Source of the DNA: Owenia fusiformis
Taxonomy: Eukaryota > Annelida > Polychaeta > Sabellida > Oweniidae
Length of the DNA stretch: 64,000 bases
Direction: 5' to 3'
Assembly (NCBI GenBank): GCA_903813345.2
Contig: CAIIXF020000010.1
Location: 14,691,181 to 14,755,180 of the forward strand
Part shown: positions 14,601 to 48,100 of the stretch, one piece after another
Layout: every line of letters starts with the position of its first letter
How positions within the stretch are numbered: position 1 is the first letter of the stretch
Made by a program: the position numbers and the translations under genes
Notes under the pieces: model-generated
Seen by the model: the letters and a program-made list of their open reading frames with translations, nothing else
The model's database searches: none
What the model was told of the DNA's origin: nothing

Positions 14601-17600
14601 GTTCAACTTTCATTTGAATTATGAAAATAGCGATGTAGGTCAAAATAGTTCAGAACGTGAGCATGTTTACTACGCGTTTGCCCGTCATATCAGAATTGAG
14701 GAAGTGGTAGCAAACGCGAGTTACAATAAACGGACGCTGATTTCTCAAAAACTAACCTGACTCCCTATAATTTGATGTTGGCCAATCGAACCCCTATATG
14801 GACAGGTGCATTTTGATTTATAACACTATGGGGGTAAGCGTTTCATAGTTGGTCACGAACGCCATATGTGCAAAGTATTGTTATGAATTTTCGAATTTGG
14901 TGTTGGATTACGGTACTCATACCTTATAGCACAATTTTTGATGAAAGTTGCATTTGGCTCCCTTAGTTAATGGCCACGATTCCATCTCGCATGAGAGAGC
15001 TACCAAACGCAAAGTAAACAGTGATATATTCCAAATGAGATATTTCTCCTGTGCCATGGCGTAGTAAGGGTAGAGGTCGACGGGGGCGAAAGCATCCCCT
15101 CCCCTAACTGTATATATCGACCCATTAGATAGAACAAGAAAAGAGCTTTAAAATGTTTTTTAATTGAAGCTTGTAGGACAATTTTGATGGAAGTTGAATC
15201 AATTTTTGTCGAAATAAATTATGGCTCACTACAAGTTAATGCCTGTACGATTCCATACTGCAAAAGAAGCACTATGCCCCCCCCCCCTCAAAAGAAAAAA
15301 GTAGGTCCGGGATTCGAACTCGGGACCGAGTGTGTTCGGGAGGGGTGCACCCCAGTTGTCCGAAACCCAGTTGTCCGAAACCCAGTTGTCCGAAACCCAG
15401 TTGTCCGAAACCCAGTTCTCCGAAACCCAGTTGTCCGAAACCCAGTTCTCCGAAACCCAGTTGTCCGAAACCCACTTGTCCGAAACCCATAACTCCGAAA
15501 AATATAGTCATAATTTACCAGAGAAAGGGGAGACGTACTAAGCTTAGGCCAGTTTCATGCCATGTATTTGGCCAAATTAATGGCATTGACGCATTCTGAT
15601 GTTCATAGATCTCTCTCTCTCACTTGCATCCATTACATGGCATTACCAGAATGGCAGGAACGGGGGATTTATTTTACATTGTGATTCTAAAAAAAGGTTA
15701 TCAAAACACAATATATATTACAGAACAGTTTATCTTATCTTCTTCAATCTCTTTTATATAGGCAAAATAAAATGAATCATTTTAAAACAGATAAAATAAG
15801 TTTACGCATATAGTACTTTAAGAATAAAACAGTATACATATTACGTTGTCAAAATATTTCGTCGCATTTAATTTCTTAGTCTCTGTATTTTATCAAATCG
15901 TAAAAGAACAAAACATTCTTAACTTAATCACTTGGGATCAACTGGAAACGAAGGCAGGCTGTCCTCGTATCAAAATGGATGTTCTCCCATTCGCAAGAAG
16001 TTTCATTTTCGCCATGTACTCACTTCATCCTTTTAATTCAATCTCTATTTCTCGAACAGAGTACGTAAATGAAGAATAAGTTTTGGTTTCAAAAGATGTA
16101 CATGTCAACTTTACTAAATAAATGCCCACTGGCTTGGGAAAGCTATTTTTCCTTTTATGAACGCTCATCACCCATTGGAAAAATGTTGTTCCCTATCAAA
16201 AAAGGCCCATGGGCCATAAAGAAAATTGGTTTAAAAATTGTAGACCCCTATCTATGTATGTTGTGTAAACGCCATTTTACAATGAGAATAACATAATTTA
16301 ACTTTGTTTGTTTGAACATCTATATCACCTGTATATGAACTTTCGTAGGCTAAACATTAAACATTTAACGTCTTGACTTAGCATATTTAGCCTAATTTTG
16401 CAATGATGTCAACGTTATTCCAATGTTATGTTGTGATTCGCAGAGGTTGCGACAACGAGATTCGTTTAAAAAAATTGTATTTTTCAAATAAGATCCCCTA
16501 ATTTTCGGAGAACTGAATTTCGGACAACTGGGTTTCGGAGAACTGGGTTTCGGACAACTGGGTTTCGGAGAACTGGGTTTCGGACAACTGGGTTGACCCC
16601 GTTCGGGAGTCGTCCTCGCTAACCACTAGACTACCAGTGATGAGGTTATCTCTAAAAGTAAAAGTAGTGCATTTATTTATGAAATTGTCGGCTCTCTAGC
16701 AAAAACACGTAGCAGCCACTTGCGTACCGACAATTGTCGGTTCTCTATCTGGCACTACTAGGTGACGATAGAGTGCCGACAATTGTCGGTACCCAAGCAA
16801 ATACCCCTGGACAGTCTCCAGTACCGACAATTGTCGGTCCTGGAGCCACTCCGAATAAACCACTCCGAATAAAACGTAAAATTTATTAGACATAGATATG
16901 AAACATTTCAGAACTAGATAACAGCAACGCGAGGTGGAGCAAATCCCATCAAACTTTTGATCTCAAAATCGTTCAACTACTTTTCAAGTTTTAGTAAAAA
17001 AGTAAAATAAGACGAAAAATTTCGAACGCAATGCGTGGCATATACGTAATTCGCGTGAAAAGTCCGAACGAAATGCGTACGTTTTTTTTTCGGCGCTCAT
17101 ATTTTTGCTGTGTAGACGAACTTTTTTAGAAATTTTTCTACTGAAACATTTTTGCTTGACAATTACCAGCTAAAATGCGTATTTGCGTGCACAGGGAGCT
17201 CAAGTTGGAACTATACGTAATCATTTAGTAAACTGGACTGGGAAATCAGAGGTCGAAGGGTTTTTCAATAAAATATATTCCAAAAATTCTTGACACCCAG
17301 TAAGTCGTAGGGTCGAAGGGTCGTAGGTCGAAGGGTTTTTAGTACATTCCAATCGGTAGATATTAAAATTTATACAGTTTCAGAATTTCCACCGATTTAA
17401 GCATTTTGGTGACAATTTAAGGGTTTCAAAGGCAAAAATAATAAAGACAACATATTTTAGATCTAAGAAGGCATCGTGTCACCATACTTTAAAGAATTCT
17501 CTAAGTTACAGTGAATTCTTGCTGGGCAGCCATTTTTAATTTTCTGGGGCACTAATCAGAAAAACAATACTATAATTGTGATCTACCTCATATTTCCTTC

Positions 17601-18685
17601 AATTTGAGTACAATATAGCCATACACAGCCAATATAATTCGACACCGTTTCGGCATCGAACAAATTCGGCACCGTTCCGGCACCGTTTCGACACCGTTCC
17701 GGCACCAAAACCTTTCGACACCAAAATTTGCTACCAGACTAGTCAGTCCATTTGGTGCCGAAACGTCACCGAAATTTGGCACCGAAACGGTGTCGAAAAT
17801 CAGATTGCATTTTGGGGGTGTACTTTGAAGAGATCAGAAAATTATTGCGAAATCCTACATAAGGTGGCCATTTTGAATTTTACTGGGCCCAAATCAGAAA
17901 AATGATACTATATTTGCATTCTACTCTAAATTACCTTTCATTTGAGTACATGTACAATAAAGCTATAGTTCAGAAAGACAAAACAATACCATATTTGTGA
18001 TCTACCCTAAATTTCCTTCAATTTGAGTATAGTATAGCCATTAGCTATTATACATACTTTGAAAAGATCAGAAAATTATTGCAAAATCCAACATAAGGTG
18101 GCCATTTTGAATTTTACGAGGCTCAATGTAGATAAAAGTTATATTTTTCAGAATTATAGGATATATGTTATACCATACAAGCTTCAGCTTACTGTGGCTA
18201 AACCATGATTCCCACTTGAAGAGGTAATGATTCCTTTCTCAATTCCTGGCTGTGACTTCAATATTGAGAGCTTATTGAACGCTCCTCTAGCCTTGAATGA
18301 ACCTGTCACCTGTTGGGTTTCTGAAAAATGTAATGCCTATACTTAGTTTGATTCGTGTCTGAAAGGGGTTTCAATTCATATTTTGGGAGGGGGGCTTTGT
18401 ACTCTTTGTTGATTTAAGTTCACTTATTTTGACCAATCAAATGAATTCACAGCTCAGATCATATTTGATTTCAATTGGACTGGTAATAAAAAAAATGTTA
18501 ATATGCAGTTGAATAAAGTTCTTTCCTTCATGCTTGACCTTACCTAGTTTGAGATAGACATTAGCCTTTATAAAGTCACTGAGGTAGGAGGAGTGCTCCA
18601 GGGGTGTCTTGTATGTGTAGTCTTTTATTCGATCAGCTGCTGCAGTTATTTTATGGTTGAATGCTTCTAGGTCTATGGCAGCCAT
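8626..18685 (-). CDS. Threonine/serine ammonia-lyase (PLP fold II), exons 1-5, C-terminus missing
   Basis: The enzyme dehydrates and deaminates L-threonine or L-serine to a 2-oxo acid and ammonia using PLP. Five exons join in phase: 18544-18685, 18193-18320, 10148-10306, 8875-8942 and 8626-8740, giving 204 residues from MAAIDLEAF. Seen: SFKARGA with the PLP lysine K57, SSSGNHG (about 81-87) that holds the cofactor, [16 protein letters not shown] and the phosphate-binding [11 protein letters not shown] (about 181-190). All joins use GT donors and AG acceptors. The family is usually about 320-340 residues, so roughly the last 120 are absent. I found no matching exon between 1 and 8625; they lie left of the window or are lost. 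The protein looks closer to the catabolic threonine ammonia-lyase group than to serine racemase, but the two share these motifs. Intron 2 is 7.9 kb and full of repeats. Confidence 0.9.
8971..9378. mobile_element. MITE with 26-bp TIRs and an internal duplication
   Basis: The ends AAAGGACGATTCTCGGTTTG (8973 on) and its inverted partner (ending 9376) match over 26 bases with one difference. The interior is two diverged direct copies of about 180 bp (each with ATTATCCCTGCTTC-like and TTGGGTAATATTTCTA motifs). It lies in the ammonia-lyase intron only about 30 bases upstream (in gene sense) of the exon at 8875-8942. No transposase is seen. Confidence 0.7.
9498..9622. repeat. Tandem repeat, about 30-bp unit
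   Basis: Four to five copies of a unit like AAATGGGCCTCAAAATGTGA lie in tandem with drift between copies. It is intronic, and the open frame crossing it is incidental. Confidence 0.8.
10560..11085. repeat. Dispersed repeat carrying a ~130-bp tandem array
   Basis: The left edge (AAGGCATTAACATG, TGTCACCACCT) and right edge (GGTGGTGACATAAAA) match the two ends of the dispersed repeat at 38605-38695. Between them lie about three tandem copies (roughly 10640-11060) marked by AAACTTGTAGATGATTTTG and CAATTTGAAACAAGTTG. It looks like a MITE-like family whose centre expanded here. Confidence 0.6.
12181..12320. mobile_element. 140-bp foldback element
   Basis: Perfect inverted arms of about 28 bases (AAATGCCAAACTTTGTGACA and its complement) flank two tandem copies of a 31-base unit that begins GCCCCGAACCGGTCCG. 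There is no coding content. The flanking 11400-12180 and 12320-12880 hold no recognised gene; open frames there show no family resemblance. Confidence 0.8.
13204..13273 (+). pseudogene. tRNA-like sequence (Ala-AGC-like), probably pseudo or SINE head
   Basis: A box A (TGGTCTAGCGG, 13211-13221) and a perfect box B (GGTTCGAATCC, 13254-13264) are correctly spaced. The loop CTTAGCACG resembles the anticodon arm of tRNA-Ala(AGC). The T arm pairs at four of five positions and is followed by CATTCCC and a T-run terminator (about 13272). The 5-prime end (ATCACGG) does not pair with the 3-prime acceptor strand and the anticodon stem has a mismatch, so a functional tRNA is unlikely. Confidence 0.6.
13976..14100. 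repeat. Cluster of CCGACAATTGTCGG palindromes (left)
   Basis: One perfect palindromic unit (ACCGACAATTGTCGGT) and two half or spaced copies (GCTAGAGGACCGACAA, AAATTGTCGGTAC) occur within 125 bases. They mirror the cluster at 16684-16850. Confidence 0.75.
14300..15180. repeat. Imperfect direct repeat pair
   Basis: The segment around 14358-14460 (GATATTTCTCCTG, CCCATTAGATAGAA, ATGTTTTTTATTTGAAGCTT) recurs at about 15038-15172 with the same order and moderate divergence. Each is preceded by a GTAAAC...ATATATTC stretch. It is non-coding, and its origin as a duplicated repeat segment is inferred. Confidence 0.55.
15303..16645 (-). pseudogene. tRNA-like sequence split by a transposon
   Basis: Read on the minus strand, box A (TAGTCTAGTGG, 16623-16633) and box B (AGTTCGAATCC, 15310-15320) belong to one tRNA-like unit. 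Removing the insertion at 15343-16600 and one copy of the 9-bp duplication brings them to normal spacing. The T arm (CCGAG-TTCGAAT-CCCGG) pairs at four of five positions. It may be a SINE head rather than a tRNA gene. Confidence 0.6.
15343..16600. mobile_element. Non-autonomous TIR element with tandem-array ends, 9-bp TSD
   Basis: The element of 1258 bp is flanked by perfect direct repeats GTTCGGGAG (15334-15342 and 16601-16609). Its ends are inverted (GGGTGCACCCCAGTTG against GGGGTCAACCCAGTTG, 13 of 16). Each end continues into a tandem array of the 15-mer CAGTTGTCCGAAACC (left about 15354-15500; right about 16508-16595 in opposite orientation). The interior is AT-rich with no recognised protein. 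A 9-bp duplication suits Mutator-like elements. The several overlapping open frames over the left array are repeat artefacts. Confidence 0.8.
16684..16850. repeat. Cluster of CCGACAATTGTCGG palindromes (right)
   Basis: Three intact palindromes and one half copy (TTGTCGGCTCTCTAGC) occur in 165 bases, each in a slightly different flank. The TTGTCGG...CTCTAGC half is the reverse complement of the left cluster's GCTAG...CCGACAA. Confidence 0.75.
17470..18125. repeat. Direct repeats of a ~200-350 bp unit, interrupted by a foldback element
   Basis: Motifs TTTCCTTCAATTTGAGTA, GATCAGAAAATTATTGC and AAGGTGGCCATTTTGAATTT recur in the same order two to three times. The first copy is split by the foldback at 17638-17797. 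Confidence 0.6.
17638..17797. mobile_element. 160-bp foldback element rich in CACCGTTTCGG
   Basis: The ends TTCGACACCGTTTCGG and its exact complement enclose several short direct copies of GGCACCGTTCC / CGACACCGTT in the left half and inverted copies in the right half. It is non-coding. Confidence 0.75.
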
Positions 18686-21021
18686 CTTGGTAAGCTAGTT
18701 ATTATTAATATAAATCACATTTTGCATCAATACATGTATTCAAATCTTAGTGGCTTTAACAGCAGCACTAAGCACATTCAAATCAAATTCTCTACATTGG
18801 CTTTATAGATTCAGATAATTATCAACAAGACACAGACACTAGTAATAGAGAAATCAAAATGGTGGTTTTGATGGAAATTTACGAAGTAGTGTTTGAAATC
18901 TCCCAATGATTTCCGCATGAGAGCTACGAAAGTTCAGCCTTTTTAAAGGTCATTCAAAAATCCCTTGATGCTACTTCATGAATTTACATCTCACTAGAAA
19001 ATATGTACTCAGGGATAAAGACAACTCAGAATCAGCTGATAACTTACAGACTTTCGCAAACAGAGTATGAAGATGTAAGTAGGAAACACAGCTGAGCTGA
19101 ATTGAGTATTTCAATTCCACCCATTACGATTTTTAGAGGCGCATTGTTGACGGCAAAAGAATTTTATATGACAGCAGTACATCCTTGAAAAAGGTAAACT
19201 CTACAGAGCTAGAGTCCATTTCACTGTTTAACTGCATCAGTAAGAGCTAAAAAATAAGAAATCAAAATATCATTTTGCAATACTATATTCCTATTGTACA
19301 TGAATGACATTTGTATATCTTGGATTGCTTCTAGTTTGGCTTATAAAGTGTGTGGCCTCTTATATTTGGATGCTTCTCTGCCATGTTATTTTCAATAAGA
19401 TTAAAGGCTGAGAGCGGGTATAAAAGGCAGATGGAACAGCCCACAACAGCCAAATATGGCAGTTTAAATGTCCAGTTCAAACAAAATGAGAACATTTTCA
19501 AACGTTCTACTATAACAAGACTGGCCACATTAGCACTGATTGGCTGAACAGTGACAGCTTGATTAATAGCTTCACCCGGGTCCAAATCTCTGGGCCTTTA
19601 ACATGGCTGAAATTCTTCAAATTACAAGACGGCACAGGCTTATTGCACAAAAAACTAAAAAATCTGAAATATACAAATGTCATTCATGTGCATTGTGAAT
19701 ATACTTTTCCATATATTATTGCACAATGGTCTCCCAATTTCTTATTTTTGCCGTTCTACTGACGCAATGAAGCAGTGAAATTGACTCTAAGTTCCACGGA
19801 CATCTAATACGTTCTTCGAACTGCCCTGGAACTATATCTATACCAGGACTGGCATCCAGATCCAAGTATTTTTAAGACCGCCGACTCTCGTTGGGCTATT
19901 TATCCCTATTGACTCAGTTGTTCATATAAATTTACGTACCTTAGATGCTTTGTAATCGACGTAGATAGAAAATATTGTTTCCTAAATTGTTCTGAAAAGC
20001 GATAATTATTACTAAATGTACTTTGAACAGGTCGACTGACCAAAAAGTCGGACTTCTGGCACAAGGTCACGTGACCAAATAGAATTTGTATAGATAAAAT
20101 TGATGACGTCACCGCCATCGGTGTAGGTCAGGTCAAAAGTCATCCATCTTGCCATTTGCCCAGCGTATTCTTACCAGTCGACAAAAAACGATGAAATCAC
20201 GTTGAAAATAAAATATACACTTTAAAATTGAGGCTGATTGAATATGACAAGACTCCATTGAATACAGCTGTGCAATTTACAGTCACCAAGATGAGCTAAT
20301 TTCGGAGAGATTCGGTGAGATTCGGGAATTAAAAAAGGTAAGCCCTTCCGGTTTCCCAACTTCAAGTATTTGAAATCCCAGAATTTTCCCAGAAACATTC
20401 TCTCTGACTGTGCTAAGTTCGGTTTGTTCAGTGACATACCTATACATGTACATGTAAAGGGGGGGGGGCACAGTTAGCACTATCTCATAAAATAGTATCT
20501 AAATATAATAGAGAGAAGTCTCTCTATTGTATTACCAACTAATTATAGATCATTGATAACTGTGCCCCCCCCCCCCCCCCCACTGTAACAGAAGTCACAA
20601 AAATTGCCAAGTCAGTGTGGGAATACAATCATTTTCTCTCTAAAAGGAAAATGTCAGGTTTTTAGTGTGCCTTAAGCGCATGAAGTAAGTACCACAGGAG
20701 CTTCGCAAAGTAGTCTAACTAAGTAAAAAACGGGTAACTTTATAAGTTATCAAAACTTACCAAATTATTCTGTAAAAGAACACATGGTCAATAAGTTTCG
20801 CTGTAGCGATATAGAGTTTAATATGCTGGAATTATCTCATTGGAATTAATGTTGCATCGATCGTTGGTATCGCAACTAATGTTATAGATATATTATAAAT
20901 GTTTAAAATGATAATTGTATAATTGAAAATATCATTATTTCCCAAACAATCAAAAGTATTAAAGTTGATTATTTTAATCAGAAAGTGACAGGTCCCCAAA
21001 TGAGATCACGTGATTTTAAAA
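18686..21021. promoter_or_regulatory. Head-to-head intergenic region with CACGTG sites
   Basis: About 2.3 kb separates the divergent starts of the ammonia-lyase (18685, minus) and sorbitol dehydrogenase (21022, plus) coding regions, so it must hold both promoters and any 5-prime non-coding exons. A 12-bp perfect palindrome GGTCACGTGACC lies at 20065-20076 and a second TCACGTGA at 21006-21013, just before the dehydrogenase ATG. Both are bHLH/USF-type E-boxes by sequence; binding is inferred. No other gene is seen. Confidence 0.4.
20459..20581. mobile_element. Small foldback element with G-run/C-run ends
   Basis: A run of G followed by CACAGTTA at the left is mirrored by TAACTGTG and a run of C at the right, with a further internal palindrome (AATAGAGAGAAG / CTCTCTATT). 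It is 123 bp and non-coding, and lies between the two divergent promoters. Confidence 0.6.
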
Positions 21022-24000
21022 ATGGAGATGGCCGGCCACGCCCCCAATATAGCTGCGATTTTGCACGGGAAGGATGATCTTAGATTGGTAATTTCTCATG
21101 TTAATATTTGATGTCATGAATAATTAATATAATATATAATTGAGGATACTCCATAATACATTATACATAACAGATCCACATTTTTCATGCATGCAAATAG
21201 TAGATTTTGACCGCTGAAAACATTGAATTTTATTCAAATTTTTATGTACTTGTACTGCAATTGAAGTGTGTTCCCGGCAGTCAGTGTTATCAATGTTACA
21301 ATTTCCCGTATCTGAATTGGTTATATTTTTCTCTGAAGTCTCAAGCTTATTGGTTAGAACGTATTAATCTTGTTATAATAATTCCAGTTACAATAAAATG
21401 TGTTGTTTGTTTTTGTTGGTTGCTTGTTTTGTTTGTTTGTTTGATTGATTGATTTGCAACATTGTGCATCCTGGCATCATGATCAACAAATGAGTCGACG
21501 CAACTTTTATGAAGAGATATGTGTTACAAATACTGACAATGGATATTTTTAACACGGGTTGACCTTATTGCCATTTTTACCATCTTAAATTAAATATATT
21601 TGTCTTGACATACATGTGATGATATAATGGTGTATTGTAGGAACCATACACAACAGTGGCACCAGGTGACAATGGTAAGGTACAGTCAATACCATAGAGT
21701 AAGAAATGTTATTCAAATAACAAATTCTATCTTATAATAATTAGTTTTACCACTTGGATACTTAAATTTCCATAAACCAGAAATCAGACTTACTAGTCTT
21801 AAAGATTTTTCATTTCCTCTAATGTGCATGCATGTTATGACTAATCATCTATCTTTCAACAGAGGTTCTTCTTGAGATGGGATCAGTTGGTATCTGTGGT
21901 TCAGACCTTAAGTATTGGAAATATGGCAAGTGTGGCAGATTTACAGTCACAGATCCTATGGTCATTGGACACGAGGGGAGTGGAGTTGTTGCGAAGATTG
22001 GAACGGGAGTAACAACATTGAAACCTGGTACTGATAAAAAATCAAATTGTGCCAAAAATCTTAATCAAAGTAGTAATTTTAATCATTATTTTTTTTAACA
22101 CATTATTGTCTTTTTTAACTTGACCTTGACCTGACTGACTGGACCTAGCTTGACACAATATGGTCCAGATTAACTGACTACCATCCTGTCTTGACCTGAC
22201 ATATCTTGTCTTGGTTTGATCTACTAAGGATTGACTTGACAAATTATTACTCATTCAGATAAAATCTGTGTTATATGATGTCCCTAAAAACTGTTTTAAT
22301 CATGCAGGAGACAGGGTAGCAATCGAACCAGGTGTACCCTGCCGTGTATGTAAACTGTGCAAAACAGGACGCTACAATATATGTCCTGATGTTAAATTCT
22401 GTGCCACTCCTCCAGTACATGGGAATCTTTGCAAATATTACACTCATCCAGCAGACTTTTGCTTCAAGTAAGTAGGTCTTGTATTGTATTGAGAGATCAT
22501 TTCAAGCTACATGATTATGATAAAAACAGAAATTCAATTGGCACAGATTAAACACATTTATCTAAAAACAAGCAAAAAAATAGGGATCACCAAAGGGTGA
22601 TCTTATTTCCATGTTATGTTGTTGCTGAACATTAAGTGAATCATGAATTCATCAAGTTCAATTTCCGCCAATCAATATTCATTAGGTTGCCTGAGAATGT
22701 TAGCTTGGATGCAGGAGCCTTGGTGGAGCCATTGGCCGTAGCAGTGTATGGGTGTGAGCGTGGAGGGGTGAAGGTGGGGACCAATGTATTGATCTGTGGA
22801 GCTGGGCCTGTGGGATTACTGTGCATAATGGTAGCCAGAGCAATGGGAGCTAGTACCATAGCTATTACAGGTGAGGTGCTATGTTAGAGGAGGATTCTTT
22901 ACATTCAGAGGTCCATGCATTAATTATTATAGCCTTTGTATATATTATACAGCCTTTACTGAGCCAAATTATGACACTTGTATGGGCCTTCTTAAGACTG
23001 CCACAGGCCCAGGAATAAGATTTAAATCCCCCCTCACTATAGGAAAGTGAGTGGAAGGGGGATGAACTCTTGTTCCCATGTCTGTGGTGACTGTCATTCA
23101 AATCCCAACCAGAAAAAATCCCTTCTATTCTCACAATCTAGGCATTCTTCCCTAATAGGTATTAAACATGTACTGAATTTATTGTGTGCTCCAGATATTG
23201 ATGACCACCGTCTCCAGACTGCAAAAGATCTTGGCGCTGATCATGTGATCAAAGTATTGACCAATGACTGTGAAGCAATGGCAGATGAGATTGTCAAGGC
23301 GATGGGTGAATGCCCGGATGTAGCTCTTGAATGCAGTGGTGCTGACAGTAGTGTAGTAACTGGCATACATGTAGGTTGGAATTGGACATATAATAAGTTT
23401 GAATGAGTAACTCATAACACATTTACCAGCTAGATGTTCTTTTTTTTCTTGAATCAAAATGTAAATGCATGTTTATCTACAAAGATTTAGTCTTCTTAAT
23501 TTCAGTGTATAAAGCACATGTTCATGTACCTATGAGAGTCCAAGATATGTAAATATATGTAGCCATTGCATTTGCAATATAGATCAATAAAATCTACATT
23601 TCTTGAAGGGAATCCATGCAAAACAATCAGTATGAGGAATATAAGGGTCCCTGGTTTTTAGCAATTTATATTTTCATAATGATATGATTTCTTTGTGGGT
23701 AGAATATATTTGGATATTTAGCCTCCTGTTCCAGGCCTGTCAACCTGGAGGAAGTGTTGTCCTGATTGGCCGAGGCTCAATGATGCCCCAGCTCCCTCTA
23801 GTGGCAGCAGCCAGCAAGGAGGTTGATATCAAGGGAGTTTTCAGATATGCTAATTGGTAAGTGAACTATGTTCAATATGCTATATGAAAGTTGTTAGTCA
23901 TTTTGACCTCTCAGTTCCATGTAAGGTAGGCCAAAAGGAGGAATTTTACTAAGCTGTTTTAGCCTTTTACATGTAGGGTTGATATTTCCATCTGGTCCAA

Positions 24001-24824
24001 AGCTTATTTTACTATTCCCACTTTAAATGCCCAGTAAAACTTAAAGGACAACTGAAATAGCTTTTCTCAACTTGCAGCTACAAAAATGCGGTTTTCTCCA
24101 TTGTAAGCCCAACGTAGAGTTCTTGCGATAGCCATTATAAAATAAATGTTAGATAACTGCTAACGGTCATAGATAACGAAATAAAACAAACCGATAAATC
24201 AAATTGGCCCCCACGTGATTAGTAACGTCATATACAAAATCTAGTTTTGGTTTATTGGTTCCATAGTAATCACAACGCCACGGCAACCATAGGATTGTTG
24301 TGTAAACAAATAACAAAACATTTTGGCATTATGACGTCACGATCTAATGGACCAAAATGGGCCACGTGGGGGCCAGTGAGAGATCACGTGGGGGCCAATA
24401 ACGTCACAACCAATTCGAATATTGCTTATTAAGCAGCTATAACGATCGTTAGAGTGAAATAGTTTTCACACTACTGATGAGAAAACATGTCCAAATACAT
24501 CTATCAAAAAATTATATTGATTCCTTTAGGTTAAAAATACCATTTCATATCTGCTTTAACAATTACATTTGGGTCATTTGGAATGATGAACCCAAAACTT
24601 GAAAAATAACTTGAATGTCTCTCTGTTACTTCCTCCATTCACTCCAATTGTGTTAAAATTATTTCAGCTACCCAAAGGCTATAGACCTGCTGAGGAATGG
24701 TAGCATTAACGTGGACAAGTTGATCACCCACCACTTTAATCTAAAAGATAGCACCATGGCTTTTAAGACTGCTATGGATAGAGATGCCAAAGCAATCAAA
24801 GTTATGATACACTGTGACAAGTAA
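21022..24824 (+). CDS. SORD: Sorbitol dehydrogenase (zinc-dependent polyol dehydrogenase)
   Basis: The enzyme oxidises sorbitol to fructose with NAD+ in the cytosol (polyol pathway). Eight exons join in phase with GT-AG introns: 21022-21087, 21641-21674, 21863-22027, 22308-22467, 22686-22870, 23195-23370, 23735-23856 and 24668-24824. They give 354 residues, against about 357 in the human enzyme. Catalytic-zinc residues are C45 (GICGSD), H70 and E71 (GHEGSG). The Rossmann motif GAGPVG is in exon 5, followed by the NAD-selective aspartate in DIDDHR. Late motifs KGVFRYAN and [10 protein letters not shown] match animal SORD. Unlike vertebrate SORD, it keeps the complete structural-zinc pattern C-x2-C-x2-C-x7-C (exon 4, [16 protein letters not shown]). 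The first of two in-frame ATGs, 21022 and 21028, was taken. A possible poly(A) signal AATAAA lies at 25681. Confidence 0.95.
24040..24560. other. GC-richer insert in SORD intron 7, origin unclear
   Basis: This stretch differs from the AT-rich intron around it. It has two CACGTGGGGGCCA-type segments and several ACGTCA motifs, and weakly inverted edges (TTAAAGGACAAC near 24041; CTGCTTTAA near 24550). It could be an old TIR element, but I could not define its ends. Confidence 0.3.
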
Positions 24825-29937: not shown

Positions 29938-30176
29938 TCAAGAATATCGTGACCTTGAGGGGTCATGCATGATTGGATCTCTCTGTGCAACTGGGCTAGG
30001 TTCGGGTGAATGGTCCCCATATTCCCTCTGAGATTGCCTAGAGAGAGAACTTTCCCGCGACACAGATGCACCATCACGCTTCTTTCGCTTAAACAGTTTC
30101 TTGAGGCTATTACTAAATGAGTTGGAGCGTTGCTTCTTCAGATTCTGCTCAGGCACTTGCAAGTGATCTATGTCAT
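29938..30176 (-). CDS. C2CD2L: Last exon: second polybasic module of the C2CD2L-like gene
   Basis: This terminal exon encodes 79 residues and the TGA stop. Its core RSNSFSNSLKKLFKRKKR alternates serines with Lys/Arg runs, the pattern that in TMEM24 binds acidic plasma-membrane lipids and is released by PKC phosphorylation (family knowledge). A serine-rich tail (SRESSLSRQS) follows. The acceptor is TTTCAG before GATGAC (the first G comes from the previous exon). Confidence 0.85.
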
Positions 30177-36100: not shown

Positions 36101-39100
36101 GTAGTGGGATGTTTAAAACATAACCTGCTTTTTGGATGTCATTTATATTTTCTATGCTAATTTTCTTACAACAACTTTCAAATAAATATTGGAAACAACA
36201 CTAAACTGAAAACATAAAGAGTTTTGTCCCAACAACATATTGTAATAAGCTTGAACAGAAAATGCACTGTAAAAATGAGTGTCGATACTGAAAAAAGTAA
36301 CCATTGTTACTAGAAACTGCTCAGCCAAATGACTCTTTAAACAGAAATAAACTTGAATAAAAAGAGCTAAAGTACTTGCAATGTGATGAACAGGCTACTG
36401 TAGTACTTGTACTTGTCATGTAATACACATCCTAATGTATTCAGAATATGAAACAAGTGATAATGTACTTGTAATGTGATAATAAAAAGCACTACTCCTC
36501 GAATCCCTGAACACATTTAATGTGATTCACATGCTGATATACTTAAAATAGGAAGCAAATGGTATTCTACAGGGTGTCAAATAAGTCTGTTCTCCCCCTT
36601 AACTTTTTTAATTCAGAGATAACATAGGGTTGGTATATATCATCTTAAAGGGAATTTAATTTGCTCATCACACACCAAATTTTAGAGTGATTGGTTAAAT
36701 TCCAAATTTTTTAGAGTATTTTTAGTGATGTCCATATTTCACTTTTTAATAGTCTCCCCCAGCAGCCTGGAGGTTGTTTCATGTACTTGAAATGTAAAAC
36801 TAGTACTAATACTAATAATATACTTGTAATGTGCATATGCTAACATAAATATGCTAATGCACTTCGTCTTGTAATGTGATGTGGGTATGCACTTGAATTG
36901 TGATATGCTAATGCACTGGTAATGTGATGCACTTGTAAAGTAGTGTGTTAATGTACTTGTAATGTGATATGCTTATGCACTTATAATATTATATACTATG
37001 AGGTTATATAATGGTTCATTCTATATATCGTGTTTATACTCGAGTGAGTATATAATATATTCACAAGTGAGCATAGCGAACGAGTGAATATATTATATTC
37101 TCACGAGAGTATAAAATGCACGATATACAGAATGAATCATTATATAATCTTATTATGCCACTCTAAGTTCAATTACAGTTGATTCAAACACAATCATAAC
37201 AATTATAAAAACCATAAAAATATCTCATAGCCAACTCTCGATCCATTTATGACGTCACTTGATTCTAGCAGTTCATGTGGGAACCATTTATGACGTCACT
37301 TGATTCTAGGAAATCATGTGTAACAAAACATACACCTCGTTCTTCGGTCAATATTCATTAGTTCCCAGAATGCACTTCTACAGTGGTATACTATGAGGTT
37401 ATATAATGGTCCTTTCTGTATATCGTTTTTATACTCGAGTGAGTATATGATATATTCACAAGTGAGCGCAGCGAACGAGTGAATATATTATATTCGCACG
37501 AGAGTATAAAATGCACGATATACAGAATGAACCATTATATAATCTTATTATGCCACTCTAAGTTTAATTACAGTTGATTCGAACACAATCATAACAATTA
37601 AAAAACCATAAAAATATCCCATAGCCAACTCAATAATGCTCTCGAACCATTTATGACGTCACTTGATTCTAGGAAATTATGAAAATTTTCATGATTTTTT
37701 TATTCATTAGTTCCCAGAATGCACTTCTACAGTGGTATACGCTGGAGTGTATACGGAGGAGTTGTATACGATGACGATATACCACTCTCCACTGTATATC
37801 GTTGTTATAGACCCATGTTATACAACTGTAATTGGACTTAGAGTGGTATAAGCTGGAGTATATACGGAGGAGTTGTATACGATGACGATATACCACTCTC
37901 CACTGTATATCGTTGTTATAGACCCATGTTATACAACTGTTATCGGACTTAGAGTGGTATAATAATGTATTTGTTATGAGATATCCTAATTCACTTAAAC
38001 TGTCATATGCTAATATACTTGCAATGTTATATGCTAATGTACTTCTAATGTTTAATGCTAATGTATTTGTAATGTTAAATGCTAATGCGCTTATAATATC
38101 ATATGCTAATATACCTGGAATGTTATGCACTTGAACTGTTATATGCTATTGCTAATGTTTTTGTAATGTTAAATGCTAATGTGCTTATAATGTCATATGC
38201 TACTGTACTTGTAATGTGATATGCTAATGCACTTACATGTACTATATGCTAATGTACTTGTAATGTGGAATGCTAATGCACTTTTAATATTATATGCTAA
38301 TGTGCTTGTAATGCTACTTCTCTATATGTATGTATAAGTAATGGATCTAAGTATAAAGTGTTACATGCAGTAGGTCTACTTACTTTGCACAGTGGGAGTG
38401 ACTCGTTCAGTACTAGTGGAACTCACTAAAAGACAGGGACACACATTTATGGGTTAGTGCAAACAAATCAGCTATATTTTTGCAAGATTATTAGAGTTTG
38501 ATAGGAAGGTTACCATGGTGACTTGATTGTTCATTGTGACATCATATTTATTCACTATGGTTATTATTATTATTATATTTATTGGTAGCAGCTCATTGCA
38601 TAATAAGGCATTAACATGCAAAATGCCACAACCTGCCATTTGTTACAGGCACCAACCATCGAACTTCGACCGCCATCAGCTTCAGGTGGTGACATAAAAT
38701 CAATGGTGACAAAATAGCTGATCATGGCAACAATGTGATTCACCATGTAGGAACACAATGTATTATCACCATGCCAACACAATAGTTCATCATGGTAACT
38801 ATGATTCACCATGGAGGAATATTTTGCCATGTACACAAAATTATATTTCATGACAGATCCATCATTCCCAGTTCCAAATATCGAGTATCCATGGCAACCA
38901 ACTTACCAGTGAATAATCTTGCAAAGGAATGTTTAAACATACATGAACATAGACATAAGATGCATGCTTTGGCTAGTGATAAGTGAACTATACTTTCACA
39001 TTTGATAGTTTATTACTAATTTAATTGCCAAACAAACACATTTTGATTTTATTATGGAGAAAAACAATGTATTATACATATAAGGGTACACAATGGGGTT

Positions 39101-42100
39101 AACCACATAGCAATATCATTGGCCTGAACACAATTTTAAGGGCTTAATATTCACTTTGCTTTCAATAATAGCACATTATTAGATGTGTCAAGGCACAATA
39201 TCCTATACCACCTATGATAGCTTAGACTCAATTTGACTTATTGACGAAATATTTCAAATTTTATTTTGCATGTTTCAGTGGGTCGATATCTTCCCTCATA
39301 TACAAAGATGTGCGGTTTGTCTTATTTTTGTAAGAAGATAGCAAAGATAGGGTTTTTCTAGAGGCAACATAGGTGCAGAACTCAGAGGCAGAACACAAGG
39401 ACTAACAGTGGGCCTATCCTAGGTGGTTAGCTGTATGTTCATATGTACCACTAAAACACTGGAATATGATGATGTCTAAGTAATAATTTAGACCAACTGC
39501 AAGTATGGAAAATGCCAGCTTAAAATCACAGAACAAATGTTAAATATAAAATAATATGAATGTATAGTATAAGTATATTATTGGACAACAACATTTGAAC
39601 TTTATATCCTATTTATATGTGATAATATACTTAAACACTTTCCCATATGCCATTGAATCTTAATTTCAATGTCTAAGTCACTGTCTAAAATTCTGTATTA
39701 GTGGCACATCAGGCCCATAACCAGGGGGAAGGGTTTAGGGGTTTGAGGAATCCCCCTTGGACAAAAAATTCTTTCAAATTATCATGCAGTTTTTCACCAT
39801 TCTGAACAGTGATTTTGGGCCAAAGTTGTCAGATGTGACCCCCCTTTGGCAAAACCTGGCTATGGGCCTACACATCTCTATTAGATTTAACATTCTACAA
39901 TCACATCAGGTCAACTTACCAGCACTTGTTGCTGACAGTGCATCTTTGTCTTCTGTTGGGGAACTGTCTGTCATCTGCAATAAACACATAAACATTAGAA
40001 TATTTAGACTGGCAGAACTGGTTGAAGTTAAAATAAAACAAGTGTAATCTCGGGTACTTTCAGTGTTGTAATACCAGGTGTAAGTTGATGTTAATTAGTA
40101 ATACATAAGTAATTTCAGGTATCTCATCTTTAATTTCAGGTTTCATACAATGTCAGGTTCTGTTATTTCAAGTTTGGGTCTTGTCATAGTAGCTAGAACA
40201 GCCACCTTGGAATCATTTAATATATTTGATTATTCTTTCTCAAGAAAATTATGGATCACCATGTATAACATGAACCCCTAGTGGCTGTCCGGGGTACTTT
40301 TTCTGGTATAAAACATCTCACCAGGCCACTCACAGGAAATAAATTATTATTTAGGTACAATTTTGTTGAACACACGAGAAAGCAGGTCCAAGGTAAAAGC
40401 CTTATAAATATTTGTTTCCTCCAGAGTAGCACTGTAATATAGCTTTAACCTAGCTTTGATGGAACACAATAATGCATACAGAAAAAAATATAGGTGTTAC
40501 ATTGGTAAACATTTAAATACTTAATGTATGGGAATAAATACAAGAAGCGCGAGCTGTGACATCATTTATACCTTTAACAGATAGTTAATAATAAGTCCTT
40601 TGAACTGCATTAATTATTTCCAGAAATTGAACATAAAATACAAGTAGGGGCTTCAATCAACGAGGATAATATAATGTAACTCAATCATCCACCGTGGCAT
40701 CACATTGATCTATTATAGCAACAACCATCAATTCTTTCAAAGGGTTTCCACACAACACATCATGCATGTGTCTCAACCACACTCTAAGTTCCTAACTATA
40801 GAGCCATGCAAACTGGCATACAGTAAAACTTGTAATGAACATTTCATCATAAGTCCATATTGAACAAAGTTGGGTGCGAGTAGTTTTCCCATTCACCGAT
40901 ACGTTAATGAGCCCACAATGGTAACATCCAATACCAATACTGACTAAAAATAATGAACACCTTTCCAGGACCATCTAGCTGCTCACTATGCATTACATAC
41001 GTTTTACTGTGATTTTGATGACACTTCATGAAGTCTATCTATCTATCTATCTACATTCTCATGCAGATCAAGCAACAGTTTTACGTGGTTGACTCAAATA
41101 TCAATGTGTCAATTTTCAGATGAATAAAAATCATTTCTTTTCAGCTAATAATTAACCATTGAAATTCAAATATGGGAAATTATATCAGCATTAAACTAAT
41201 TAAACATTGACATTTAAATATGGAATATCATCAATGCCCATGACCTTTAACTAAGAGAATCAATTCCTTTTAACTAATGGTATCATTCCTTTTAAAATTA
41301 CAAAATCACATTGATATTTTGCCAATGCCTCTCACTAACTACCAGCTTCACCTTGATGACTGGTATTTCCTTATTTGCCAATAAAGAGAGCATTAAATAT
41401 ACAGATAAATTGAATTTAATACCAAAATACTTTAATGCTAAAATTTAAAATAAGAACTTGAATCTGGCATTCTTTCTGTTTGTAGTGTTTAATTATTTGT
41501 TACATGTTTGAAAGTTGAAATTAGATAAAAATTTTCTGCAAGCTTGTTGGCATGACACGATGTCATATGACATAGCACTAAAATACTGGACATCTGTTAA
41601 TTTATCAGTACCCTTTTCAAGTATAAATAACATCATAGTATGATAGCAACGTACTTAGAAATAGAACAGCACATACCAATTACTGTACTGCATTCAAAAA
41701 TATTTTAAATAAAATTCTACAATTGCACATTTCAATTTTCAAAAACAGAAACTTTGCTGAGATAAAACGCATGGATATAGGCTGCAATAAATGCAAACAA
41801 ATCATTAACATGCAAAATGTTACCACCTGCCATTTGTTACAGATGCCAACCATCATCCACAAAAAGTTAGAGACTAATTTACAATATTTCAATACTTCTG
41901 GTGGTGATGTAATAGAACCCTTCCGCTGTAACACTATTAACATCCCTCGAAAACATGCACATTTCTCTAATACACACTGTATGAAATAATGCAATCATCA
42001 CGCAATTATAATGATGCTGTGTGTTATTATCTGTTTTAAAGAAAGAACACAAAGATGCTTCAAAATGCTTAGTTCATTATCATCATGCTCAAATGGAGCA

Positions 42101-45100
42101 TTGGAGTTTAAAGAAATTTTAAGTTTTCAAAAGATTTTGGTGTTATAGTGGTGTAGTGATGAAATCTAGTGTTGAGATTTTTCACTATGGGTTTGACTCC
42201 AAGCTGTATTAGGCAAGTTGTTTTTTCACCAAAATCGTATTATCTAAATGTTTTGTGCGCCTCACCCGCTGTACTGACGTGATGACAAGCGTGCTAGTAC
42301 GAGTGGGAGTCCTTGGTCGAGAGTCTCTCTGAGTGGTTAGTTGTCGGACGGCAGTATCAGCCACAGTTTCATCCCCATTAACTTGTACAAGCTCTGTAAA
42401 GTGATGCAAGCAAATCTGCTGTGTTAGGTTAATCAATCATAAAAATGCATACAAGCACACAAATGTGACCCACTGCATAATGCATTCATTCACCCCTTTT
42501 TGTGAATAGTAGATTTTCCTGTTGGATTTGTTTATTCAATGCAAAAAGGGGTGTGAGGATGTCGTCTGCAGTGTTGACTGGGATGCGGGGTTCACATATT
42601 GTACTTACACGAGCAGGAAGTGTGGTACTTTTGTTGAAGTCAATTGGTTGCATTTGATCTGAAACACAGCAGTTCATTATAGCATGATATAGACCCACTA
42701 ATTAATTTCTAAATTAAGACACGCCCATTCAATTTCCAGCATTTCTGATTGGTTAATGAGTAATGAATATTCAACTCGCTGGCTGTATTGATGATCAATG
42801 TTTACACCTCCTACGACCTAAACTAATTCAAGGTCTGGGATTTTAGGACCTAATTTAGATAATTGTGTCGCCTTAACTTGAAATAAGTCATATCAAATAG
42901 ACAAATCGCAATACAAAATCTGCAGCCCTTCCAAATGAAAGAAATACATCTTAAAGTATTATACCATGCAAACAAGCGTTCAACCAAATGCAACCAAAAC
43001 TACTGTAGTAATAAATCAGTCATTCATTTATGATATAAACTTTACAATTACTGAACATATATTTTCACTTATTTCGAATAAAATAAGCAGTGCAGGGTGG
43101 AGCATTTGTGACGAAAATAATTAAGTTAAAACTTTTTCAGAACAAGGTGAGGATAAGCATGTATTGTACAAAAGGTGTCCAAATGCAAAGCAACTCATGT
43201 GAGTAGAATAAAAAGAATTATAAATGCATAATAATAATAAAATTACAAGTAACACAAATGATGGAAAAGGGCAGCAAAAGGTCATGTTGAGCTAAAGAAA
43301 ATACAAAGGAAATAATAACAAAGCACCTCAATCCGCTGTTCAAGCACTGAGACGTATCTCTGAGCTAGCTTGGAAAACATAAAATACAAATAAAAAGAAG
43401 AAAAGTTAGATTGAAGATAGGTAGGTGATATTAGGTTGGGTGAAATAAGCTTACTAGGGAGAGGGAAGGAGAGCAACAATTAAGGTCATGATTTACAGGA
43501 AAACTAGAAATTTTTGCATGCTATTGAAAATCTAAAAAAATAATAATAATTTTGTGAATTTTCACAAGGGCACCATTTTTCATCTAGCTAATGCAGTATA
43601 CCTATGAAAAGTTTCTCCTATTTTTGGTAAAATCAAGATATTTTTGAAAATGGAAAAAATGGCTAAAGTTTGTTGCATGAAAATTTCTAGTTTTACAGTT
43701 TTCTATAGCCGAACAGCTCCTCCAGGTGATGATGTGCTAAGAGATAGAATAGGAAAAAAAAGGAGGGCTATGTTTCAATGCCATGATGGGTATAACTTGG
43801 GGTTACCAAAACATAAAGTATGACAATGGACATCTTGAACCATCACCTATTATCTCATTGATTTCAATATATTATAAATGGGATGAGAGGCTCAAGCACA
43901 GAATGGGTCTTTGAGTTCATTTATAATTTGAAACTGAATTTGGACTCATGGGCATGGCAGTCATCTTTTTAATGCAATCAAATAAAATTTAATTAAATGT
44001 AATAGACAAATAAAGGCTATATGGCCATCATGACATTTTAACATAAGAGGCTCCCAATGGGTAACTTTTTAGCTTTTTCCATGAGTGCCCCTGAAGGTAT
44101 GAGATAAACTGTTACCCGATGTTATGGATGATTCATACGAGTCGGAAACTTTCCGAGTTCTGTTGCCCACGGGAGAGGTGGATACCCCATCTGTTCGACC
44201 AATGTCTCGTTTGATTACCAAATTTGGAGAATCTGTAAAATTTTAGTTTTGCAATACACAACATGCTTTTAATACTTCAACTGTGCAACCAACCACAGAT
44301 TAGAAACTTGCTGCCATGGTAACGGTTTCATCTTATTATTGCGATGGTAATTAACACTGCTGTTAAAACTGAGTTTGGATATATTACAATATGCATGCAA
44401 TATGAGCTAATGTTATATTTCAATTTTTTGCTATTTTGAACACAGAATTCAAACTTATTTGAAATGGAATGCAACTACAACAAATTGAGTAAATATCATG
44501 ATCTTTTGTAGGTTTAAATCAAGTAAAGAGCCTTAAACAAAAACACACTCAAAATGAAGCTACATTAATACCTGTTAAGTGATTACCATGGTGTTAATTC
44601 ATTGGATGTATATACTACATAAAACAACTATGACATACATGTAAATACACATTCAATGATTTTATTTCTTGCTCAAAAAGCAACCAATTCATGAGAATCA
44701 TAAAGTTACTACATCGTATCAAATAAGTACCGTTTATAGATGTTTCATATTTCATATCTCGTGGCCGTTCAGTTGTGGTGGTAGTCGTGGTGATGACTGT
44801 GCCACTTGGTGTGACATGTCGTGCTGTCTCAACTTGTCGCCGTGGTGATGACAAGTCTTCGTTCTGGTACAAGGCAGCTTCAGCTGGTTCAAGGAACAAA
44901 AACTAGAACAAGAAGAATTTGGAAGTATTATAAATGTAATTCAAACATGACCATGCTCTATTTGAATTTCTCAACCAATTAATTCAATTTTACACAAGGC
45001 ATGAACATGCAAAATGTCATAAACTACCGTATTATCTCTATTAAACGCACAGTGCGCTTAGCAAATTAGAGAGTGTGCGTTTAATAGAGATAATACGGTA

Positions 45101-48100
45101 TGTAAGGCAATGTACCTCTATTGTGATGGATCCAGAAACGACTTCAGTCTTGTCAGGTCTTGGCAACAGAGGGATGATCTGTCGACTGCTGGGGTTGCGA
45201 CGTAGCTCTTCCATGTGGACAATGTTACAACCAAGGAAGTCCTCTGGAAGATCATAATCCATCTCAAAAACTGCTAGTTTATTTCATTCATTTTTAATTC
45301 TGTACTACACATTTACTCTTATACAATTCCATAACCATAACTGATTGCTAGTATTGCTGATGTCATTAATTAGCAAGTAAATCATCAAATAGACTAGTAC
45401 AGACAATGATACATAACAGAATATTAAATATATATTGCTTGTTCAATTATCATATAGAAAAGATCTGTAGGAACAGCCTAGTATGTTATTCTGTTATTCT
45501 GTAATGATCATTGAATTTAGAAATTGAAATTTTGGTAACTGGTCAACTCGTACCCAAGACAAGTCATACCCAAGTCAAGTCGTACCCAAGACAACTCGTA
45601 CCCAAGTATATATTTTGTTTTGAATCAAGCATTGGACTGGGAATGTGAATAGATATACATATTATAATTGAAACATACTGTTCAGAATTTTGAACTGAGT
45701 GTCAATATTTTATATTGGCCACAGATTCAGGATGTTCAAGTGAAGAGACATATGTTTATAATCATTTTTCAAAATATTATATGTTTATGAGTGTTTGGAA
45801 CAAGTGTCAGATTTAATGTTGTAATTATATTTATTTATATATATGTTTGACAAAAAATGTTGAGAACAAGCGCTTCAAGCACTTCTTTTATTTAATAAAA
45901 AAAATGGTTTACTGATCCATTGAGAAAAAATGTCGTCTAAATTCAAAAAAATATTGAGGCTTATTTGATTCACATTATAACATGAAAGCATTACAAACTC
46001 AATTTCTTCCCTAATATGCACCCATAATACTGAAAATAAGCTTGGGTACGAGTTGTCTTGGGTACGAGTTGTCTTGGGTACGAGTTGACTAGGAAGCGAA
46101 ATTTTGATTCCTAATACTGGCTGTATATTTTGCCTGCAACTTTCAAATTCATAGTAATTTTCACAACCATACCTCCTGGTGGTTTTTCCCTATCATACAC
46201 TTCAAACATAACTTCACTTGTGTTGTCTCCAAGGTCACTGCAATAAACAACAACAACAGGCATAAATGTTTTATCTCATCGCAATAGCCGTGCCCCATTT
46301 GTCTTTATCCTTCCAAACGGCAGATAAGAGGGGCTCTGGTATACCAGAATGGTTTATCTCTCTTTTTTAAAAATATAAATGTATTTTGCAACATGTATAT
46401 ATGTTGGATAAAAAATTTACAAAAAAAACTAACAGGTATGCGCATATTACAGCAATTCACAAAAACAACTAATTTCTACTCCAGTATATACATATACAGT
46501 TCTGCTAAAGCATGTTTCAATTGATGGTTAGGATTTAGTCCCCTCCCATCCCATCTCTAAATACAACCAGAACAACGGCAACGCCAAAGCGTAGCGAATC
46601 CCATCGAACAGCCATGGGTGGCATTTTTACAAACAAAGTATATAGCAAAAATGGCAGCCATTTTTCAAAATGGCTGCCATTTTTCAAAATGGCCATTTTG
46701 AAAAATGACCGCCTTCTACCAAAAGTGTCATTAGACAGTGTGCCATGCTGACAGTATTCACATACCAAATATGAACAAAATCGCTTCACTACTTTTCGAG
46801 TTATAGTAAAATACGTTAAAATGGCGGCCATTTTTCAAAATGGCCGCCTTCTTTCAAAAGTGTCATAGGACAGTGTGACATGCTTATAGTATTCACATAC
46901 CAAATATGAACAAAATCGCTCCACTACTTTTCGAGTTATAGTAAAATATGTTAAAATGGCAGCCATTTTGAAAAATGGCCGCCTTCTACCAAAAGTGTCA
47001 TCAGACAGTGTACCATGCTTATAATATTCGCATACCATATATGAACAAAATCGCTTCACTACTTTTCAAGTTATAGTAAAATACGTTAAAATGGCGGCCA
47101 TTTTTCAAAAAAAATTTCAAAACGGCTGCCTTCTACCAAAAGTGTCATAGGACAGTGTGTCATGCTTATAGTATTCACATACCAAATATGAACAAAATCG
47201 CTCCACTTCTTTTCGAGTTATAGTAAAATACGTTAAAATGGTGGCCATTTTTCAAAATGGCGGCCATTTTTCAAAATGGCCGCCTTCTACCAAAAGTGTC
47301 TTTAGACAGTGTGCAATGTTTATAGTATTCACATACCAAATATGAACAAAATCGCTCCACTACTTTTCGAGTTACAGCAAAAATCGCAAAATAACGAGTA
47401 AAGGCCGCCATTTTTCAAGATGGCTGCCATGTGCTACTTTAATATCTACATTTCTAGCTTTATTAATGTCCTATATAATTTTTCTACATCTAAAACATAT
47501 TGCTACTACAGTTTTACATATTGCACCTAAATTACTGTAAATTCGGCACTAAAATGGCCGCCATTTTGAAATGAGCGGCCATTTTGAAAATCGGCTTTCG
47601 AGCAGAACTTCTACATCCATAGGCTATATGTGTACAAAATATGAACAAAATCGGGCCAACGGTATTTGAGTTATTGCCCGGACGGACGGACGGACGTACA
47701 GACGGACGGACGGACGGACGGAGGCGTTCCCTATATCCCTCCGAACTTCGTTCGATGGGATAATTACGGTAGTGTAACATTTTTCAGAGTCCCAAGATCA
47801 ACTGACTTAATGTTAACCTTTACCATGCTGCCTTATTTCAGCAAATATATCCCACGCAACTGGCTTATTTTTCAAAGAGTGCAAAAAATGATATACCTGG
47901 ACTAAATAATTAATATCTCAATAACTACTGAATGAATCTGGATAAAATTTTCACAAAGGGAAGATACAGTGGCCTGGCTCATGAAAAAAATGTTCTCATG
48001 AATTTTTTCGTACATTAACACGACTGGGCATAAATATACCATGAATACTCCTCCGGAATCGGCCGCTCCGCCTCTTCGTCTGGTCAGAATCCAAATCTGA

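Follow-up and report, generated by a model that had tools for sequence, protein, structure and literature searches.

Non-coding elements with tandem-array ends in Owenia fusiformis as probable members of two foldback-type Mutator-like element families

A 64,000 bp stretch of the Owenia fusiformis genome (assembly GCA_903813345.2, contig CAIIXF020000010.1, positions 14,691,181 to 14,755,180), referred to here as the window, carries two short elements, A and B, whose ends are built from inverted arrays of tandem repeats. The original prediction, made from the letters of the window, described them as transposons of unrelated sequence that share a rare architecture and a 9 bp target duplication, and guessed at a Mutator-like enzyme. 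The locus therefore raises the question of what kind of elements these are and which transposases may have moved them. The analysis presented here indicates, with a probability of roughly 85%, that A and B belong, as non-autonomous members, to two Mutator-like element (MULE) families of the foldback type. Transposase-bearing elements of the same clade as B are present in this genome; for A, just a decayed MULE-linked cousin was found.

Element A, a non-coding, foldback-type element belonging to a many-copy family, occupies positions 15343-16600 (1258 bp; coordinates refer to the forward strand of the window unless stated otherwise). Its left end opens with the terminal motif GGGTGCACCC, a perfect 10 bp palindrome at 15343-15352, followed at 15353-15487 by nine 15 bp units, CAGTTGTCCGAAACC, counted within 3 mismatches. 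The right end, on the reverse strand, comprises six inverted 15 bp units at 16501-16590 and a terminal motif at 16591-16600 that reads GGGGTCAACC on the inward strand. The inverted arms correspond to 15343-15440 and 16503-16600. A 9 bp target site duplication (TSD), GTTCGGGAG, lies on either side at 15334-15342 and 16601-16609, confirming both the predicted coordinates of A and its predicted duplication.

The element interrupts a stretch on the reverse strand at 15290-15342, resuming at 16601-16640, which we take to resemble a tRNA-derived short interspersed nuclear element (SINE); ARAGORN called no tRNA gene in this flank. When the flanks of A were joined through one GTTCGGGAG, 2 other places in the genome were matched, each with 1 mismatch in 31, and the reversed control gave 0. 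These related, insertion-free copies look like paralogous empty targets, each with the 9-mer once, and show that nine bases were duplicated upon insertion of A.

Element B spans 45534-46097 (564 bp). Four 16 bp units, CAACTCGTACCCAAGA, form its left array at 45544-45607, and three inverted 16 bp units its right array at 46040-46087 on the reverse strand. Its TSD, GAAATTTT, is found at 45526-45533 and 46098-46105. The start lies one base before the predicted 45535 and the duplication is 8 bp long; the supposed ninth base, G, is on the left side the base with which B itself opens, and on the right side a flanking base that matches by chance. Inverted tandem arrays were found at both ends of both elements, as had been described, using Tandem Repeats Finder (TRF) and the inverted arms of A. 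The centres had been called AT-rich and non-coding. The former is true of B (26% GC) but hardly of A (33%, against 35% for the window), whereas the latter stands: the longest stop-to-stop frame wholly inside the centre of A is 83 aa, and a tblastn comparison of three MULE transposases with the whole window gave no match at E ≤ 1.

Both A and B are repeat families. The 15-mer of A was matched exactly 942 times in forward and 853 times in reverse orientation across 498 Mb, and the 17-mer of B 336 times in each; the reversed-pattern controls gave 0 for either. Copies of A were sampled at 19 places on contig C1 among the matches listed (13 paired, 6 one-sided) and copies of B at 20 paired places on the same contig among the matches listed, the window copy being added to each sample and B places with matches on one strand only being left out. 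Eight of the 20 A places were excluded from the TSD count, namely the 6 one-sided places and L023 and L027, which are without one terminal motif. Among the 12 measurable copies that remained, 9 had a perfect 9 bp TSD, 1 matched at 8 of 9 positions, 1 had a perfect 8 bp TSD and 1 had none that was clear. With the boundaries of B corrected, its 21 copies comprised 12 with a perfect 8 bp TSD, 3 matching at 7 of 8 positions, 2 with a perfect 9 bp TSD, 1 matching at 8 of 9 and 3 with none clear, and a 9 bp TSD for B was rejected on these counts. As a control, the left flank of one copy was paired with the right flank of another; no perfect TSD arose in 132 pairings for A or 420 for B, and permitting one mismatch at 8 bp gave 2 of 420 for B. 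Comparison of the copies with these controls indicates that each family largely keeps to a TSD length of its own, 9 bp for A and 8 bp for B. Both lengths fall within the range of 8-10 bp that is typical of the MULE superfamily.

Ends with at least three units held 5-13 units in A (27 ends) and 3-9 units in B (40 ends). Inverted ends of tandem repeats with a variable number of units, the structural mark of foldback-type elements, are thus present in both families. Tandem repeats are abundant in the window, where TRF returned 62 rows, and the arrays might be supposed to be ordinary minisatellites that stand in inverted pairs by chance. That explanation is hardly conceivable given the paired orientation of the arrays, their constant terminal motifs, the presence of TSDs at family-wide boundaries and the empty sites. 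Moreover, a terminal motif was present at the start of the array in all 6 of the one-sided A arrays examined. With the motif in place, these arrays seem to belong to elements that are truncated, or that have their partner end beyond the approximately 1 kb read, and do not look like free minisatellites. The minisatellite reading was rejected on the TSDs at family boundaries and the terminal motifs of one-sided arrays. Neither an inconsistent duplication nor lone minisatellite arrays, the two outcomes that the original prediction had named as contrary to it, was encountered in the copies examined, the TSD being steady in most of them.

In A the outermost unit was exact at 25 of 27 ends, compared with 70 of 146 for the other units; in B it was exact at 33 of 39 ends, compared with 49 of 131, again at ends with at least three units. 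Since the copies are related and the consensus was started from the unit given in the original prediction, the p-values for this comparison (3e-5, 7e-7) are not independent and represent a trend, not proof of function.

A search of the genome with the Pfam MULE profile PF10551 yielded 8 matches. Their surroundings include three complete elements with inverted 16 bp arrays, L064 (3876 bp), L065 (4851 bp) and L066 (4895 bp), each of which contains one long open reading frame (ORF), of 601, 601 and 586 aa, respectively. The TSDs of these elements, GTACATAG, GTTAATTT and GTTTGAAA, are perfect and of 8 bp, a length common to all 3 coding elements with both ends located. FLYWCH and MULE domains scored above the Pfam cut-off in the three proteins; FLYWCH did so also in the pieces from L076, L077 and L082, and was not found by Pfam in L068. 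An N-terminal FLYWCH together with MULE, the domain arrangement of Phantom, was found in the B clade only. A PHD-like N-terminus in L064 and L065 fell below the Pfam cut-off (19.1 against 24 bits), and this part of L064 matched the PHD of Pygopus in the PDB (E 0.007). The acidic residues of the putative DDE triad, which we take to be the D of DGTF, the D of DFE and the E of EGWH or EGYH, are kept in 5 of 5 aligned proteins.

L064 and L065 also carry minisatellite arrays of 91-92 bp, located 5' of the ORF. The transposases of L064 (2385-6260) and L065 (1603-6453) are 99% identical and the unit numbers of the two elements differ (7.6/6.8 against 10.4/6.6 by TRF), so array length seems to evolve more quickly than the coding sequence. 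L068 combines inverted 15 bp arrays with a 420 aa MULE gene. Damaged or partial relatives with 16 bp arrays are represented by L077, L079, L082 and L083, an inverted pair being seen, within the stretches covered, in L079 only. No inverted pair of such arrays appeared in the TRF rows for L067, L069, L070 and L071, the last of which has short 16 bp arrays. L076 has an ORF of 620 aa, approximately 50% identical to L064, and no such array was found in the flanks searched, which covered approximately 1.5 kb on the 3' side and 1.8 kb on the 5' side.

The unit of B differs from that of L066 by a distance of 1, a closeness equalled by 0 of 2000 shuffles, and over the first 73 bp the ends of B and L066 are 83.6% identical (E 6e-17). 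Both terminal motifs of B resemble those of L064 and L065. On this likeness of unit and end, and on its TSD, B is most readily interpreted as a non-autonomous element of the L064/L066 MULE clade. Elements of the hAT type also produce 8 bp duplications, and the TSD of B would suit such an element; the identity is nevertheless very improbable, since in three elements MULE-domain genes are bracketed by B-like ends with 8 bp TSDs. A hAT identity for B was rejected on the MULE domain in the transposases of these elements.

The link of A to MULEs is likely but indirect, and runs through L081, a MULE relic next to which a unit and terminus like those of A are found. A starts with GGGTGCACCC or GGGGTCAACC followed by the array; comparably, L081 has GGGGATAACCCC followed by a 15 bp array and, on the opposite strand, the MULE remnant. 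The MULE fragment beside this array scores above the cut-off, at 29.0 bits. The unit of A lies at a distance of 4 from the L081 array (0.85% of shuffles) and 3 from the inner L068 array (0.1% of shuffles), both percentages being uncorrected for the 12 pairs compared. The guess of a Mutator-like enzyme is hence borne out for B, with coding elements of near-identical unit and similar termini, and more weakly for A. Two further arrays were observed beside MULE sequences. At 3432-3574 of L068, two distinct 15 bp arrays stand back to back on one side of the MULE gene, the inner one being nearly the L081 unit reversed. At 284-329 of L089, no more than 0.9 kb from a MULE fragment of the L081 kind, 3.1 copies of a different 15 bp unit, TCTGGCAGCCTCTAT, perhaps represent another unit lineage.

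A number of results weigh against the assignment of both families to MULEs. TSDs were unclear in 1 of the 12 measurable copies of A and in 3 of the 21 of B, and the length typical of the other family was seen in 1 copy of A (8 bp) and 2 copies of B (9 bp). A genome search with the joined flanks of B for an empty site returned only the window's own right side, and the match of B to L064-L066 comprised terminus and array but not the centre (among 60 of 1977 rows). The L068 array that is like A's unit runs the opposite way, and the outer ends and TSD of L068, like a second, right end of L081, were looked for and not found. No coding copy of A came to light, and the A copies L017-L035 gave no match to three MULE proteins, including the four longest copies (2.65-5.1 kb). 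None of the 92 exact A ends listed lay near the 11 matches of the L081 transposase piece, the nearest being approximately 55 kb away among the matches listed, as compared by eye. Slices of approximately 0.9 kb around three further L081-like fragments, that of L089 among them, contained no array of the A or L081 type.

The absence of a MULE match in the A copies fetched or near the A ends listed would be expected if A came from another superfamily with foldback ends, such as P/Galileo, in which case A and B would be convergent and B alone a MULE. Foldback ends outside MULEs are known in Galileo, according to the accessible part of PMC3688188. The circular edit distance between the units of A and B is 7, and 55% of 2000 shuffles come as close, which too would suit separate origins. 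The predicted lack of relationship between A and B holds in so far as their units show no more similarity than shuffled sequences do; each, however, resembles MULE-adjacent units, B strongly and A moderately. A separate superfamily for A is considered unlikely, given that a 9 bp TSD is usual for MULEs and that the unit and palindromic GGG-type terminus of A resemble those beside the MULE relic. P/Galileo elements, moreover, have a THAP-domain P transposase and a TSD of 7-8 bp, against the 9 bp of A. The ends of the MULE Muta1 also open with a 10 bp imperfect palindrome, followed by 12 bp repeats (PMC5225508, in part).

If both families are MULEs, as favoured here, a mechanism can be proposed. 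The ends of both elements have a terminal motif starting with G, followed by inverted 15-16 bp units. A MULE transposase from a full-length relative would act in trans, its N-terminal zinc-finger part presumably binding the units. The enzyme would pair both ends, cut, and join them to a target opened with a stagger of 8 bp in the B clade and 9 bp in A. Stagger and repair would leave the TSDs that are observed, the chemistry being that expected from MULE biology. In these copies units are gained and lost within the arrays while the outermost is nearly constant, as would be consistent with a critical recognition site. We infer that the arrays are transposase-binding sites; in the accessible part of PMC3688188, that role for Foldback/Phantom tandem repeats was called untested in 2013. 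Non-coding array-ended elements are tied here to MULE transposases, firmly for B and likely for A. The arrays that this genome supplies together with matching transposases and TSDs, having a common core and a near-invariant outer unit, make the binding question easily testable.

Divergence of the end units was compared with that of the transposases in a small set of pairs, giving pairwise figures without a formal correlation test. Between L066 and L083 the transposases are 66%, 91%, 93% and 97% identical by piece and the unit difference is 0. L064 and L066 are 55% identical with units differing at 2 of 16 positions; L064 and L079 are 61% identical over the covered part with a unit difference of 2; L064 and L077 are 42% and 59% identical by piece with a unit difference of 5, which 5.5% of shuffles reach. 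Identity between L064 and L068 is approximately 25%, with a unit difference of at least 7. The core GAGTTG(A/T)C is common to the 16 bp unit group. The figures can be arranged as a ladder: an unchanged unit in L066/L083, 2-5 changes per 16 at approximately 40-61% transposase identity with the core kept in this middle range, and unrelated units at approximately 25%.

It is tentatively suggested that the array-ended MULE lineages of this single genome form a ladder along which end unit and transposase diverge together. If so, the tandem unit would be a written record of changing transposase-DNA recognition, and a joint shift of array and DNA-binding domain would yield new families. No literature linking unit change to transposase change within one genome was found in open-licence titles and the starts of abstracts. 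Array ends may instead have arisen repeatedly and independently within the MULEs of this genome and not have been inherited from a single ancestor with array ends whose units then drifted, a possibility that falls short of an even chance. The 15 bp and 16 bp unit groups are unrelated by the shuffle test, the L064-L077 distance within the 16 bp group is reached by the 5.5% of shuffles given above, and the coding relative L076 is without such an array in the flanks searched, all of which would fit repeated origins. Against these stands the similarity of most units of the L064 clade, which have GAGTTG(A/T)C in common despite transposase pieces only approximately 40-61% identical to that of L064.

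Element A is itself enclosed by a third inverted-repeat element, C, at 12887-17350 (4464 bp), which is flanked by a perfect 9 bp TSD, AATCGGTAG, at 12878-12886 and 17351-17359. The ends of C, of approximately 100 bp, contain short CCCTTCGA-type tandem repeats, and a 25-mer from its end gave 183 and 193 genome matches on the two strands at up to 2 mismatches, with a control of 0. As C encloses A, C was probably inserted first, followed by the SINE-like stretch and finally by A. The palindrome CCGACAATTGTCGG occurs four times within C, at 13976-14004, 16719-16749, 16767-16797 and 16813-16857. Just outside the left end of C, a short 16 bp array, AGGTACCCGGTTAACC, at 12774-12817 is perhaps the lone end of another array-ended element. 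Elsewhere in the window, TRF detected long satellite-like arrays at 62572-64000, 59098-59787 and 46691-47382 with units of 112 bp, 100 bp and 135-147 bp.

Inverted ends of tandem repeats are a feature of the foldback elements FB of Drosophila and TU of sea urchin, to which A and B are alike by description only. Foldback elements of both hosts are mentioned in PMC4079207, and array-built inverted ends have already been published for animal MULEs (PMC5225508, PMC3169594), so that the architecture cannot be called rare; these and the following comparisons are limited to the accessible portions of the sources. Muta5 of Aedes aegypti has a 15 bp subterminal tandem repeat in 9 copies, an 8 bp terminal motif and a TSD of 8 or 9 bp, tandem repeats of 9-15 bp occur in 10 of 12 Muta families with long terminal inverted repeats (TIRs), and Muta1 was termed a type-2 foldback element (PMC5225508). 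The non-autonomous derivatives of Muta1 and Muta5 run into the hundreds and vary in their number of repeats (PMC5225508, PMC6446971), and Muta and Phantom fall together in group 20 of the MULE tree (PMC6446971). The 15 bp-type tandem ends of Muta are like those described here, but the unit sequences differ. A single Muta family mixes 8 and 9 bp TSDs, whereas A and B are each dominated by one length. Transposases of the B clade, at 586-620 aa, are longer than that of Muta1 (504 aa) and contain, at the N-terminus, an additional PHD-like stretch that scores below the Pfam cut-off.

Tm1 of Meloidogyne (Mutator/Foldback) has asymmetric terminal motifs, units of 13-15 bp and TSDs that are mostly of 9 bp and, in 45 of 53 cases, within 8-10 bp, with a FLYWCH and MULE transposase in rare coding copies and many short derivatives, and was assigned to Phantom by its authors (PMC3169594). 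Its unit differs from those found here, and its transposase is encoded by seven exons and has 496 aa; Tm1 also contains an inner, purine-rich motif, D. Rehavkus elements (PMC6446971) share with the elements of this genome a MULE-like enzyme, an internal minisatellite and long TIRs, and their PHD finger has a possible counterpart in the PHD-like N-terminus that scored below the Pfam cut-off; the present elements differ in having FLYWCH, an 8 bp TSD in the B clade, and a 91-92 bp minisatellite 5' of the ORF and not before the 3' TIR. A bivalve survey records MULEs across the molluscs that it covered, and its accessible part does not discuss such ends (PMC10294476). Set beside these systems, the families of A and B are ordinary in kind, well supported and, apparently, new as families.

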